From an uncultured Phycisphaerales bacterium (GTDB lineage: Bacteria > Planctomycetota > Phycisphaerae > Sedimentisphaerales > Anaerohalosphaeraceae), in the NCBI GenBank assembly GCA_937868095.1, contig CALMLO010000036.1, positions 1 through 64,000 of the forward strand: a stretch of 64,000 bases of DNA. Direction: 5' to 3'. A program made the position numbers and the translations under genes. Of this stretch, positions 24,614 through 32,212 are shown in pieces. Position 1 is the first letter of the stretch. The number at the start of each line of letters is the position of its first letter. The notes under the pieces were generated by a model that ran no database searches, was not told where the DNA came from, and worked only from the letters and a program-made list of their open reading frames with translations.

Positions 24614-25474
24614 TTACTTCCACAAAAAAAACAGGTACGCAAGGGGTGCCGGCAGGAGAAGCGAATCAATCACATCCAGAACTCCGCCGAATCCGGGGAT
24701 GGTCTCTGAGGCGTCCTTTTGCCCGGCATCCCGTTTGAGCATCGACTCAGACAGGTCGCTCAATTGTCCTAATACGCCAAAAACCGCCCCAAAGATCACG
24801 GCCTGTTTTAGGGATATTATACCAGAAACGGCTGAAAGAAGACAGGCCCCTATTATGCCGCCCAAGACGGCGCCCCCCAGCCCCTCCCATGTCTTTTTGG
24901 GGCTGACGACAGGGGCCAGTTTATGTCTTCCCATTATTTTGCCAATGGTATAAGCTCCTGTATCAGAGCACTTTATGGTGAAAATATACAAAAGAATCGC
25001 CCACGGTCCGTCGGCAACCCGAATGGCCATCACGAAACTGGACAAAAAACCGAGATAAAAGATGGAAAAAAAGGAAGCCGAGCAGTTTTTGAGAGTTCCT
25101 TCTACTCCTTGCCGAACAATCTGGACTAAAAAAAGTCCGGCAAAAATCAGAAACAGCGAAAGCAAAAGATAATAAAGCAAAAAATGCTCCGGATTGTCTG
25201 ATAATGCGGCCCAGTAGAAAGCCGACGCCAGCACAATCGAGCCGACAACCGCCTCCGGTATGTAAATGCGAATGCCGCCGGCCCGGGCCAAGGCGGCTGT
25301 CTCCATTTGCGCCGGTACAGCCAGAAGACATACGAGGAGCAAAAAGAGAGTCCCCTGGGCTTTGCCGGCGATGGCGGAGCCGGACAGCGAGCCATCCATC
25401 CAGCCATCGAAAAGAATCAGCCCGACAAAAACGGCTGTCATCAGGGTTCCGAAAATCAAGCGCTGTTTGAGCAT
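24614..25474 (-). CDS. cdsA: Phosphatidate cytidylyltransferase CdsA
   Basis: Makes CDP-diacylglycerol from phosphatidate and CTP, the branch point of phospholipid synthesis. The protein has about eight hydrophobic segments. The C-terminal signature is complete: KCSDTGAY, SPKKTWEGLGG, and KDASETIPGFGGVLDVIDSL with its acidic residues. ATG 25474 with GAGG upstream gives 286 residues. The frame stays open far upstream through uppS, but that part is not CdsA-like. It follows uppS by 14 bp. Confidence 0.94.
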   Translation of the reverse strand: MLKQRLIFGTLMTAVFVGLILFDGWMDGSLSGSAIAGKAQGTLFLLLVCLLAVPAQMETAALARAGGIRIYIPEAVVGSIVLASAFYWAALSDNPEHFLLYYLLLSLFLIFAGLFLVQIVRQGVEGTLKNCSASFFSIFYLGFLSSFVMAIRVADGPWAILLYIFTIKCSDTGAYTIGKIMGRHKLAPVVSPKKTWEGLGGAVLGGIIGACLLSAVSGIISLKQAVIFGAVFGVLGQLSDLSESMLKRDAGQKDASETIPGFGGVLDVIDSLLLPAPLAYLFFLWK

Positions 25475-25488
25475 TTGGATACCTCGAA

Positions 25489-26262
25489 TCAGGAAGGTTT
25501 GGGCTGAATATCTCCAAACCTGCGGGCTCTTGCCGCAAAGGCCATGAGGGCCTTGTCCATGTCCGCCGGCGAAAAGTCCGGCCAGAGTGTTTCGGTTACA
25601 TAAAACTCCGCATAGGAGATTTGCCACAAAAGAAAATTGCTGATTCGCAGTTCTCCAGAGGTTCGGATGACTAAATCGGGGTCCAGACAGCCGGCTGTAT
25701 AAAGGTGATTGGATATGCACTCTTCGTCGATTTGTTCGGGCTGGAGCAGATTGCGGCGGCATTTGTCGGCAATGGTTCGTACGGCCTGGACAATTTCTTC
25801 CCGGCCGCCATAGTTCAGGGCCAGGCACAGGGCCATTCCTGTGTTGCCGGCTGTCAGACGCTTGGTTTCTTCGAGGGCATCAATCACGTGCTGAGGAAGA
25901 TTGTCCAGCGTGCCCAGGTGAATCAGCCGTACGTTATTTTTCATTAACATCGGCCGGATTCCCTCCAGATAGATGGCGTACAGATACATCAGAAAATCGA
26001 TTTCTTCTTTGGGGCGTTTCCAATTCTGCATGCTGAAGGAGTAAAGGGAGAGATACTCCAGCCCGATGTCCACACAGTATTGTGCGATGGTTTCTACCGT
26101 TTTTCCGCCTTGTTCGTGTCCTCGAAATCGGGGCAGTCCTCGCTGGAGTGCCCAGCGTCCGTTTCCGTCCATAATAATGGCAGCATGCCGCGGCAATGCC
26201 TCGCTCTTCAGCCCCAGCCGAAGGGCGGTTTGGCGGCGTTTTGTTTCGAAATCCGTCATCAT
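25489..26262 (-). CDS. uppS: Isoprenyl transferase (undecaprenyl diphosphate synthase)
   Basis: A cis-prenyltransferase that builds the C55 carrier lipid for peptidoglycan and other envelope polymers. HAAIIMDGNGRWALQRGLPR holds the catalytic Asp and the diphosphate-binding Arg, GHEQGGKTVETI follows, and the C-terminal end shows RTSGELRISNFLLWQISYAE. It has 257 residues. The start ATG 26262 overlaps the purA stop by 4 nt. A second ATG lies at 26259. Pairing with cdsA is common in bacteria. Confidence 0.95.
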   Translation of the reverse strand: MMTDFETKRRQTALRLGLKSEALPRHAAIIMDGNGRWALQRGLPRFRGHEQGGKTVETIAQYCVDIGLEYLSLYSFSMQNWKRPKEEIDFLMYLYAIYLEGIRPMLMKNNVRLIHLGTLDNLPQHVIDALEETKRLTAGNTGMALCLALNYGGREEIVQAVRTIADKCRRNLLQPEQIDEECISNHLYTAGCLDPDLVIRTSGELRISNFLLWQISYAEFYVTETLWPDFSPADMDKALMAFAARARRFGDIQPKPS

Positions 26263-28080: not shown

Positions 28081-28830
28081 TTATCGTCTCTGGGAGATGG
28101 CATTGCTGAGCGGCCGGGCAAAAAGGGGAATGATGCGTTCGAACATCAGCTGTTCCGCCATGCGGCACTGCTGGGTAAATGCATCCACGCCGGCAAACTC
28201 CGTTTTCCCCGACGGATAGCGCCGTATCGTAAAATACAGACTGATTGGCTCGTCGATTTTGTTTTTTTCATTCCGGTCCAGAAGTCCGCTGCGGGATTCC
28301 AGTGCAATGCGGGCCTGCATAGAACCATCGCTTGTCAGAGCGGCGATCATGGTGGGGCAGCAGCTGACCACCCTGGCGCCGGGAATTTCAAAGAAACCGC
28401 TCAGACTTGAGTTGCCCAGCAGGGCTTCTGCGATTACTTCATCGTGGTTGCCCTGATAATCAAAATCCATCGTAAAGGTTACATCCAGCGAGTCAATGTC
28501 CAGCGGCGTGATGCCGAGCATATAGGGCATAATCTCGATGACTTCGTGCTGCAACTGATAGGCCTGTTCAAAATCGTCGGGGTCGGCACAGCCGGCAGAG
28601 AGCCGCTGGCTTTCCATGGCTACCCATCGAAACCGCCGTCCATCGATTTCTTCTTCGAGAATGAGTTCTCCCTGTTCCCGTCGGGAGAATTGGCGGAGTG
28701 TTGGAAAACGCCTCTGGATATGCTCGAAGAAGGCCAGCACCGTTTCTCGCTGGCGCGGCAGCTTCATCTGTGTGGTCACGCACATGTCCAGGAACAGGCC
28801 GTCACAAAACGACCCAAAAGGATTATTCAT
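28081..28830 (-). CDS. Hypothetical protein, possibly conserved in Planctomycetota
   Basis: A 249-residue soluble protein without signal peptide or membrane segment that I cannot place in a family. It contains a run of alternating strands (DSLDVTFTMDFDYQGNHDEV), several cysteines (SCCPTMIAAL) and a C-terminal part resembling a mixed alpha/beta domain. It is probably co-transcribed with the two-helix membrane protein downstream and with purA. The start ATG 28830 is the first in frame. Confidence 0.6.
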   Translation of the reverse strand: MNNPFGSFCDGLFLDMCVTTQMKLPRQRETVLAFFEHIQRRFPTLRQFSRREQGELILEEEIDGRRFRWVAMESQRLSAGCADPDDFEQAYQLQHEVIEIMPYMLGITPLDIDSLDVTFTMDFDYQGNHDEVIAEALLGNSSLSGFFEIPGARVVSCCPTMIAALTSDGSMQARIALESRSGLLDRNEKNKIDEPISLYFTIRRYPSGKTEFAGVDAFTQQCRMAEQLMFERIIPLFARPLSNAISQRR

Positions 28831-28943: not shown

Positions 28944-29107
28944 CCGGATAAACACAAGCGGTTATTTGCGGGCTTGTTTTACTTCGGTAAGGGTTTTAAA
29001 TCGGGGGACAGCCGGGCGATTTCTGCCGGATAAACACAAGCGGTTATTTGCGGGCTTGTTTTACTTCAGTAAGGATTTTAAATCCGGGGACGGCTGTGTG
29101 ATTTCCG
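28944..29107. repeat. 82-bp tandem duplication carrying a stop codon and terminator hairpin
   Basis: Two adjacent copies, 28944-29025 and 29026-29107, start with CCGGATAAACACAAGCGG. The copy at 29026 contains the last 15 or so codons and the TAA of the kinase-like gene, plus the hairpin ACAAGC/GCTTGT (29036-29041 with 29054-29059). The other copy repeats the same coding end in the same frame with several substitutions, and an identical hairpin (28954-28977). The roughly 35 bases beyond the stop are identical in both copies while the coding part differs. The hairpin is a plausible terminator for the minus-strand gene. Confidence 0.9.
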
Positions 29108-31610
29108 CCGTTAGTCCGCCGAGAACGGCAAAGAAGGTCATTGGCAGCAGCCGCCATAAAAACGGAGTGAAAACGGCCGGTTTTGTATCAGCCCACCCCT
29201 GCTCCATATAAAAAGCCAACAGGGTGTACAATGCGCTGATAATCACTCCGGCGACAGCAGCGGCGGCGATTCGTCTGGTTCGGGCCAGTCCTCCTGCGAA
29301 CCGGGCTGCTGTCCAGCCGGCGGCTGCCGAGAGCAGAATCGTCGGAACAATCAGCGACTGCAGGTACCAGCGATTTTCCTGCGAAGGCGGGATTTGTGTG
29401 TTTGCATAGTAATGACTGTGCAGAAAGGCCAAAATCAGGCAGACTCCTATTGAAGCAGCCCCCACATGCCACAATCGAACCTTCTGTCCCATTCTTTCCC
29501 GGCTGATTTGCGCCATCCGTCGCCGGATAGTCAACGGCCAGTTGTAGCACAGCCGGAATATCCAATGCTCCAGCAGAGCCCCTTGTTCGCCGAATACCGG
29601 AACAATATGCACGGCGTTTGTCGCCCAGTGGGCCGCCATAAATCGTGCCAGGGCCGGATATCGATATGTCATTTGGATTGGAAAGGCCAGATAGCCCACA
29701 TATTTGAGATAACTGAGAAACAGTGCAATATTGTAATCTTTAAAATTCCGGTCATGGATGGCCAGGCACGTTGTATAAAGACCTCGACAGAAAGACCCCG
29801 GCGAGATGGGAATTACCTGAAAAAGAAGTAAAATGCCGGCGACGGCGAGAGCCCGCTGTTCCTCCGGTGTTTCCGGGTGGGTGAAGTAGTAGATGGCTGC
29901 CACTGTGCCGGAGACAAGTTGGGTAATCGGCAGGGTCATCAGGTGAACAACCAGACTCACTAAATACCTCTGAATGAATGGTTCGTTCACTTGCGACAGA
30001 ATCGTTTCTGCATCTTCTTTGCTGAGAATGTGTTTTTTCTGCCCTTCGCAAACCATATCCTCCAGCCACTGTTTGCGGAGTTCGGCCTTGAAGTACAGTT
30101 GGAAGGGGCGGATGAAGATTGAATGCAGACGGCTCTGGAAGAATTCCGCATCTGTCAGAAAGCGGTGCAGTCCGGCCGGCAGCAGGGTTAGCGGCAGATG
30201 CAGGAAAAACCGCCACGGCCGGCGGAGAATCGCGTGTGTCTGTTTTTCGCTGAGGCGGCCTTTTCGAAGCCATTTGACCAGCGATTCATGGATTTTGCCG
30301 ACGATAGCCCGCCGCAGATAGGAGGGGCTTGACAGTATGGCCCGATAGTGAGCGCTCCAATCCGGCCGGCCCCATGCTTTTCGCAGGACCCTTCCCAGGA
30401 GGGGCACAAGTCCCAGCAGCCAGAAAACAAGCGTCTTGCCGATGCTGGTGTGCAGGGCTTTCTCGTGTTCGGCATCGATTTGGTTTCGGATTCGCCAGCT
30501 GGTTGCGGCACTGGAGAGAATCGTGGACCACAGCCGGCCGTCCGTCAACAGACGGATATGGTTGTGTGTGATATCGGGAACAGAGTTGCGGTAAATCCGC
30601 TCGCATTCTTTCAGTTCATTCAGCAGTTGTTTGCCGGCGGGCATGTTGTCAAAGGTTTCCGGATGCCGGGCAATATAGTCGTGCAGCCGGTGTAAGTTTC
30701 CGCGGTCAAACTGAACCAGCGAGCCCCTGGCAAATCCCTGGGCAATCAATTTAAAATCGCCCGGACTCATCGGCAGGAAAGGCAGGAGGGTCAGTCCAGC
30801 CCGAAAGTCAACGGCCACGAGTCCGGCGGCCGGGTCGGCATCGGTCTGCATCTGCTTGAGGCAGTTCGGCTGGCTTTTGCAGGTGCTCCACTCGTACTGT
30901 CGGGCAAACTCATGGGCGCCCATCTGGTGAAGGAGCCGGACAAAGTCCCTCATAAAAAGATATTTGGTGCGATATTCCGGCGAGCCGAGCCGTTCGGGGG
31001 GGACGGGTTTGCCCCTGCGCCACAGCCGGAGCAAATCCATTCGGTCGTCCACTTCCAGCCGCCATGTGCGTCCGTCAATCCATCGGCTGATTTCGCCGCA
31101 ACTGCCGATGTTTGGGTCAACAAAGGTGGCGTAAATTTCGTTGACGCATTCGTCATCTCCGAAATGAGCCGCGGCGGCCTGGCGGATGAATTTCTGCCAC
31201 AATGCGCCGGCGCGTGCCGCCGACGGGTTCACCTGCGGCTGAAACGGCCCTTGAAAGCCGATGCCGTACAGAAGATTTCGGAATATCTGCTTGAGTCCCG
31301 ACGGCGGGATGAGGATTTTCATTGCATAGAGCTGCTCGGCTGCAAGCCCGCCGTGCTCCGGGACGGATTGGCCGTCTTTGACCAACTGAAGGATGCGAAT
31401 CTGATAGACCTGGCCGGCAAAGCCGCCCCCCACAAAGCGCTCTATGCGCAGGCGGGCCGTAACCTCGCCTGCCGGCAGGAGGGGACAGAGGGAATAGTCC
31501 AGTTGCCGGCCGGCTTCATACCGCTCCACCCTCATCGGACGGTGCAGATTCAGCCCTGAAAAGGCCTGCTCTATCTGCTGTATCATCTGGGAAGAGTAAT
31601 CTTTCGCCAT
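29061..31610 (-). CDS. Large membrane protein with N-terminal protein-kinase-like domain
   Basis: An 849-residue protein of unknown function. The first 280 residues show a kinase-like order: a glycine-rich loop FVGGGFAGQVYQI (59-71), a candidate ATP-binding lysine in LYAMKIL (Lys98), a possible catalytic loop with His233, Lys245 and Asn249 (GAHEFARQYE ... KSQPN), and VAVDFRAG (Asp268) in place of DFG. The rest is helical, with perhaps six to eight membrane segments from about residue 400 on and a terminal pair before the charged end. This could be a pseudokinase or an atypical kinase fused to a membrane domain. No partner gene is evident. Confidence 0.8.
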   Translation of the reverse strand: MAKDYSSQMIQQIEQAFSGLNLHRPMRVERYEAGRQLDYSLCPLLPAGEVTARLRIERFVGGGFAGQVYQIRILQLVKDGQSVPEHGGLAAEQLYAMKILIPPSGLKQIFRNLLYGIGFQGPFQPQVNPSAARAGALWQKFIRQAAAAHFGDDECVNEIYATFVDPNIGSCGEISRWIDGRTWRLEVDDRMDLLRLWRRGKPVPPERLGSPEYRTKYLFMRDFVRLLHQMGAHEFARQYEWSTCKSQPNCLKQMQTDADPAAGLVAVDFRAGLTLLPFLPMSPGDFKLIAQGFARGSLVQFDRGNLHRLHDYIARHPETFDNMPAGKQLLNELKECERIYRNSVPDITHNHIRLLTDGRLWSTILSSAATSWRIRNQIDAEHEKALHTSIGKTLVFWLLGLVPLLGRVLRKAWGRPDWSAHYRAILSSPSYLRRAIVGKIHESLVKWLRKGRLSEKQTHAILRRPWRFFLHLPLTLLPAGLHRFLTDAEFFQSRLHSIFIRPFQLYFKAELRKQWLEDMVCEGQKKHILSKEDAETILSQVNEPFIQRYLVSLVVHLMTLPITQLVSGTVAAIYYFTHPETPEEQRALAVAGILLLFQVIPISPGSFCRGLYTTCLAIHDRNFKDYNIALFLSYLKYVGYLAFPIQMTYRYPALARFMAAHWATNAVHIVPVFGEQGALLEHWIFRLCYNWPLTIRRRMAQISRERMGQKVRLWHVGAASIGVCLILAFLHSHYYANTQIPPSQENRWYLQSLIVPTILLSAAAGWTAARFAGGLARTRRIAAAAVAGVIISALYTLLAFYMEQGWADTKPAVFTPFLWRLLPMTFFAVLGGLTAEITQPSPDLKSLLK

Positions 31611-31711: not shown

Positions 31712-32212
31712 TTATCCAAATAAAGATGGGATAAATCTAATAGCGAGCATTGCGACGGCTGCGCCATAGATGCCGGCAGCTAAATCGTCGGCAAGGATGC
31801 CCCAGCCAGCCGGCATTTTTTCCAGTTTTCGGATAGGCCATGGCTTGGTTATGTCAAACAGGCGAAAGAGGGCAAATCCGAGCACGGCTGTATTGCAGAT
31901 GTGAACCGGCTCCAGCAGGGCGACCGCCAGCAGGAGGAGGGCTTGGCCGGAGATTTCGTCTGCCACCACCTCCGACGGGTCCTTTTGCTGTGTTTTCTCC
32001 ATTACGGCGGGGGCAAACTGGACACAAAACCACCCGAAAAGGAGGGCCAGCAGGGCCATAGCGTATCCATTTGCCTGGGGCTGGAGATGTCCGAGCACCA
32101 GATAAATAATCACCGGCGGCAGCGAGCCCCATGTGCCTGGGGCAAAAGGCAGTTTTCCCAAGCCAAAACCGGCTGCAAGAAATTGTTTTATGTTTTTCCC
32201 TGCGGTCTTCAT
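31712..32212 (-). CDS. pgpA: Phosphatidylglycerophosphatase A
   Basis: Dephosphorylates phosphatidylglycerol phosphate in the inner membrane. The PgpA pattern is clear: GLGKLPFAPGTWGSLPPV at about 17-34, FALFRLFDITKPWPIRKLE, and GWGILADDLAAGIYGA with the acidic pair. Three or four hydrophobic segments span its 166 residues. It overlaps the upstream HD (dGTPase-like) gene by 4 nt (ATGA). With cdsA 7 kb away it represents phospholipid synthesis in this region. Confidence 0.92.
   Translation of the reverse strand: MKTAGKNIKQFLAAGFGLGKLPFAPGTWGSLPPVIIYLVLGHLQPQANGYAMALLALLFGWFCVQFAPAVMEKTQQKDPSEVVADEISGQALLLLAVALLEPVHICNTAVLGFALFRLFDITKPWPIRKLEKMPAGWGILADDLAAGIYGAAVAMLAIRFIPSLFG

Follow-up and report, generated by a model that had tools for sequence, protein, structure and literature searches.

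A family of membrane-embedded kinase-like proteins that alternates with uppP beside pgpA in planctomycete genomes

Peptidoglycan and other surface glycans depend on undecaprenyl phosphate (C55-P) as their essential carrier, and the pyrophosphate form of this carrier, C55-PP, is the phosphate donor of LpxT. LpxT has been described as a phosphotransferase of the inner membrane with a link to the synthesis of C55-P (PMC2229476), so that formation of C55-P by transfer of a phosphate to another lipid, instead of by hydrolysis, has a precedent. The enzymes described for the conversion of C55-PP to C55-P are BacA/UppP (PF02673) and PAP2 proteins, and these known phosphatases act outside the cytoplasm, where their active sites are located (PMC12826051). 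Why the carrier is made as C55-PP, as well as the dephosphorylation step, are treated as open points in a review (PMC12826051). Fusion logic has previously tied DUF368 to BacA and PAP2 (PMC9876793). Our literature search found nothing relevant on a kinase-like C55 enzyme or on UppP in planctomycetes. The protein described here, which we call X, occupies the gene slot of uppP and resembles two further groups: the protein kinases (PF00069; GSK3, PknB) in the fold of residues ~35-285, and the UbiB/ABC1/COQ8 proteins (PF03109) in combining a kinase-like head with a membrane protein and a link to isoprenoid lipids.

The window, a stretch of 64,000 nucleotides from an uncultured Phycisphaerales bacterium, encodes X as an open reading frame of 849 codons with an ATG start and a TAA stop, as translated from the window letters (Table 1). 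The frame reads on the minus strand, and the strand given in the preliminary description of this DNA needs correcting; the frame itself is real beyond chance, being present as a single copy in its own genome and having full-length homologs with 35–70% identity in tens of genomes. Single-sequence searches of X against Pfam, NCBIfam, PHROGs, PADLOC and PDB sequences returned no match, and scans of 44 homologs and of the X-family profile returned no known family other than PgpA, a domain present in the two fused homologs, in agreement with the earlier statement that no described family has this layout. X defines a new family and, together with a sister family, a new superfamily of membrane-embedded kinase-like proteins with one layout.

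Table 1. Features of protein X and of its gene cluster in the window.
Feature	Coordinates	Strand	Basis or remark
Protein X, kinase-like head and membrane domain	29061..31610	-	849 aa
Kinase-like domain, residues ~20-300	30711..31553	-	AlphaFold model, Foldseek and VIA matches to protein kinases
Glycine-rich loop GGGFAGQVY, residues 61-69	31404..31430	-	Homolog alignment; GxGxxGxV in 44/44
Lys98 (AxK, beta-3 lysine)	31317..31319	-	Homolog alignment; invariant
Catalytic-loop equivalent, residues 234-249 (EFARQYEWSTCKSQPN), without HRD Asp	30864..30911	-	E234, R237, Q238, W241, K245, N249 invariant
DFG equivalent DFRAG, residues 268-272	30795..30809	-	DFG in two PgpA-fused members
Membrane/helical domain, residues ~340-700	29511..30593	-	Invariant S606, R609, Q646, E675, E681; no solved fold matched
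C-terminal four-helix part, residues ~700-849	29064..29513	-	Missing from some homologs; PgpA instead in two
pgpA (phosphatidylglycerophosphatase A), directly upstream of X	31712..32212	-	Pfam PF04608, E 1.3e-39
g250, conserved orphan, downstream of X (of uppP in X-minus genomes)	28081..28830	-	Similarity clusters
g150, conserved orphan, start uncertain, homologs ~150 aa	27566..28168	-	Similarity clusters
uppS, undecaprenyl diphosphate synthase, same cluster	25489..26262	-	Pfam PF01255, E 2.5e-79
cdsA, phosphatidate cytidylyltransferase, same cluster	24614..25828	-	Pfam PF01148, E 7.6e-47

The kinase-like fold that had been read from the order of motifs, with structure prediction as the proposed check, was borne out by an AlphaFold model of X (mean pLDDT 83.9). 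In a Foldseek search of the PDB the top matches were all kinases (probability up to 1.00, best E 4.9e-3; probability 0.98 and E 5e-3 for a match to a protein kinase), and VIA aligned residues 35-285 with GSK3-beta over 150 residues (Z 10.0, 3.6 Å); these scores are moderate, as the E-values lie above 0.001. A viral structure library likewise yielded essentially kinase matches to the head. The predicted model thus supports a protein-kinase-like fold of the head. APH structures were not among the fold matches listed for X, and the HxD of the APH loop HxDxxxxN is absent from the 44 homologs. None of these 44 sequences matched the Pkinase Pfam profile at E<1, and a profile-profile comparison with 21 profiles gave weak scores in which UbiB ranked first (31.4; P 0.0021) and the Ser/Thr kinase profile second (28.7), with 19 controls at 25.9 or below.

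Conservation was counted in an alignment of the 44 X homologs. All 44 carry G61, G63, G66, V68, A96, K98, W241, K245, N249, D268 and G272, as well as E234, R237 and Q238. The series of motifs noted earlier therefore holds for the glycine loop, Lys98, Lys245, Asn249 and Asp268, but not for His233, which is a histidine in just 22 homologs. The reported DFR in place of DFG is also a family trait, since Arg270 is kept in 42 of the 44 and replaced by glycine in two, and the literal DFG occurs at the loci of the two PgpA-fused members (L094 and L096). X has in common with protein kinases the GxGxxGxV loop, the AxK lysine and the active-site Asn and Asp. Unlike them, it has no HRD aspartate, no helix-C glutamate and no Pfam match, and it carries a large membrane domain. 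The canonical catalytic Asp is absent because the residue five positions before N249 (position 244) is C, W, A, M or L and in no homolog Asp, and in the helix-C region W138 is invariant and Q139 and R143 are near-invariant with no conserved Glu. Judged from the alignment, X keeps the kinase set of putative nucleotide- and metal-binding residues but neither the usual catalytic base nor the Glu of helix C. The absence of the HRD aspartate makes ordinary kinase activity doubtful.

The remainder of X had been described as hydrophobic with several spans, and family-averaged hydropathy indeed places about eight hydrophobic segments beyond residue 390, in a part that is all-helical in the predicted model. 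S606, R609, Q646, E675 and E681 are invariant here among the 44 homologs. When residues 300-712 were predicted alone (pLDDT 85), no solved fold matched convincingly (best VIA Z 4.8 over 76 residues, Foldseek E 1.8), a result that does not in itself prove a new fold.

A second, distant and likewise undescribed family of ~530-610 aa (L101 and relatives) has the same kinase-like and membrane layout and aligns to X along both domains with a probability of 96.9 to 98.5% in profile comparison. Its motifs comprise GxGRSGxVF, a Lys, an Asn and 'WIDxESG'. We found it in 22 of 392 genomes of the phylum (L101, L183-L188, L196-L218), a count that includes four short matches to the N-lobe only. At these four loci the frame is of kinase type, with a glycine loop, HRD and then DFG or DLG, as genuine kinases have, and they probably encode genuine HRD kinases. 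Since the sister family shares the layout of X and its profile reaches the N-lobe of HRD kinases, it independently supports the kinase-like fold of X. Conserved lipid genes were not found in the sister-family neighbourhoods.

Of the 126 good-quality genomes of its own class, 33 encode X, which also occurs in 12/294 and 12/392 genomes in two samples across Planctomycetota, and in three of 297 genomes from the phylum of one Deltaproteobacterial MAG. The family is thus mostly planctomycetal, with a few members in Desulfobacterota-like MAGs. In a tree the latter branch beside the X proteins of the order to which the window belongs, Sedimentisphaerales, a position that suggests transfer, and within the class the tree makes the descent of X look old and mostly vertical. 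Outside the class, that is, in Desulfobacterota-like MAGs and other Planctomycetota classes, no pgpA or lipid neighbourhood was found beside X. The neighbours in the Desulfobacterota-like MAGs (L002-L005, L099, L100) are DHH, SixA-like and acyl-CoA genes, with lipid-carrier genes absent.

Within the order, X is part of a conserved cluster, dGTPase-pgpA-X-g250-g150-purA-uppS-cdsA-phoH-HD, whose genes we named from Pfam or from similarity clusters. Across the class, pgpA is present in all 35 X-plus genomes versus 85 of 115 X-minus genomes, and in 24 of the 35 it lies less than 3 kb from X or is fused to it, with arrangements that range from co-directional and convergent genes to fusions. The other families of the class have a convergent pair of X and pgpA, sometimes beside pgsA and rimO, and pgsA (CDP-alcohol transferase) adjoins pgpA and X in some genomes (for example at L085). 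PgpA (PF04608) is a separate domain that is not homologous to X; it occurs in just two X proteins, where it forms an extra C-terminal domain (G749 and G774, Pfam E 1.7e-33 and 3.9e-28). The preliminary description had suggested a signalling or a lipid/carbohydrate-phosphorylating system; this gene context favours lipid metabolism, and signalling received no support. Two genomes of the genus to which the window belongs (L243 and L244; G198 and G251) have pgpA with the dGTPase gene and X with g250 on another contig, and here the cluster is broken between pgpA and X. g250 and g150, neither of which has a convincing Pfam match, remain neighbours of pgpA/uppP or pgpA/X across much of the order.

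The most interesting aspect of X, which was invisible in the preliminary description, is its exchange with uppP. X-minus genomes of the order have the arrangement dGTPase-pgpA-uppP-g250-g150-purA-uppS-cdsA (G278, G324 and G336; partly G057, G127 and G339), and the slot between pgpA and g250 accordingly holds X in X-plus genomes and uppP, alone or fused, in X-minus genomes. In the loci that were counted, uppP is close to pgpA in 16 of the 20 X-minus genomes versus none of the 31 X-plus genomes (Fisher 7e-10, a value without phylogenetic correction from genome counts that are not independent). Both states coexist within the families f1, f2, f93 and f96 and even within one genus, g224, in which G324 is X-minus and G332 X-plus. 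Furthermore, the PgpA of X-minus genomes is often a protein of ~455 aa in which PgpA is fused to BacA/UppP, as in G336, G339 and G744 among others (Pfam E as low as 5.5e-71). Such fusions, which place two lipid-phosphate phosphatases in one chain, were seen at L159, L163 and L162 and also at L160, L168, L176 and L232-L238.

The uppP genes in the slot differ in type between G324/G278 and G336/G057, and therefore the gene in the slot has been replaced more than once. Their motifs are EGxTEYLPVSSTGH versus QGxTEFLPVSSSGH (L235 and L239 versus L233 and L242). No uppP was found in ~798 kb of X-plus stretches or in 756 kb (33% of 2.28 Mb) of the X-plus genome G332, in a search confined to uppP whose queries recovered the known uppP in control loci. 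A motif scan of the X loci for EGxTEFLPVSSxGH and PGxSRSGxT was negative as well, and X did not match PF02673. Because the exchange at a fixed slot recurs and PgpA is fused to X or to UppP in mirror-image fashion, a shared function best explains the relation of X to uppP. A function of X centred on PgpA alone had been considered first and was weakened by uppP being the gene with which X is swapped.

The slot position suggests that X performs the task of UppP, or one tied closely to it, by a new route. Our tentative proposal, which we consider possible and somewhat short of probable, is that X is a membrane-embedded ATP-binding kinase-like protein substituting for UppP/BacA in the supply of C55-P. 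The kinase-like head (G-loop, K98, N249, D268) would face the cytosol and bind Mg-nucleotide, the helical membrane domain with its five invariant residues would hold polyprenyl (pyro)phosphate, and C55-PP, provided by UppS or returned from wall synthesis, would be converted to C55-P by phosphoryl transfer. Alternatively, X may spend ATP on moving or presenting the lipid, in the manner proposed for UbiB/COQ8. We infer the C55 substrate, the use of ATP, the direction of the reaction and the cytosolic side of X. That X represents a third, unrelated class of undecaprenyl-pyrophosphate enzymes, in which a kinase fold is combined with a new membrane domain and C55-P is made on the cytosolic side, where UppS makes C55-PP, so that UppP is not needed for this step, seems unlikely to us. 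Several points count against a substitution of UppP. X shares with UppP the gene slot and the fusion partner, but has no detected sequence or fold similarity to UppP or PAP2, and X outside the class and the sister family are found without a lipid neighbourhood. Moreover, the nucleotide-binding head, which sets X apart from UppP, implies a location inside the cell, unlike that of the known C55-PP phosphatases, and the missing HRD Asp argues against ordinary phosphotransfer.

The close association with PgpA and the presence of pgsA beside the pair in some genomes would also fit a UbiB/COQ8-like ATPase of phosphatidylglycerol metabolism, which makes phosphatidylglycerophosphate or another lipid available to PgpA by extraction or presentation and whose gene has merely displaced uppP from the cluster. 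Although UbiB gave the best, if weak, profile score, we hold this reading to be rather improbable: it leaves unexplained that it is always uppP which disappears from the slot and that PgpA has fusion partners in both X and UppP. Furthermore, the helical domain of X is unrelated to that of UbiB, hallmarks such as KxGQ and DxHPGN are absent from the X alignment, Pfam is unmatched, and a separate true UbiB is encoded in the same genome. The invariant nucleotide-binding residues of the kinase-like fold and the lipid genes around X could instead point to a polyprenol or lipid kinase, which acts on undecaprenol or another lipid alcohol and feeds the C55-P pool of UppP. E234 or K245 could stand in for the absent HRD aspartate of such an enzyme, but a lipid kinase alone would not make UppP dispensable, and we regard it as distinctly unlikely. 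Least probable of these readings is a regulator of envelope lipid synthesis, either a pseudokinase or of protein-kinase type, with a role in signalling and not in metabolism. That X has kept the nucleotide-binding residues but neither the HRD Asp nor the helix-C Glu fits a nucleotide-sensing pseudokinase, and the best fold matches are protein kinases; however, the gene exchanged for X in its slot encodes a metabolic enzyme, X is fused to PgpA, and no sensor or receiver domains were found attached to it.

If the preferred reading, a kinase-like replacement of UppP, is true, a step of a pathway that is a major target of antibiotics would proceed by new chemistry, and would do so in a phylum whose walls are unusual. 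Should the exact reaction differ, X still represents a new superfamily, consisting of two families with one layout, for which a concrete and testable function can be proposed.

Two minor observations concern individual X loci. Long antisense open reading frames opposite X in GC-rich loci (L067, L095) were judged spurious. The X homolog of family f24 (L069:5132-8782), 1216 aa in length, is extended at its C terminus by a long part that contains hydrophobic segments and weakly resembles GDSL lipases (E 0.02).
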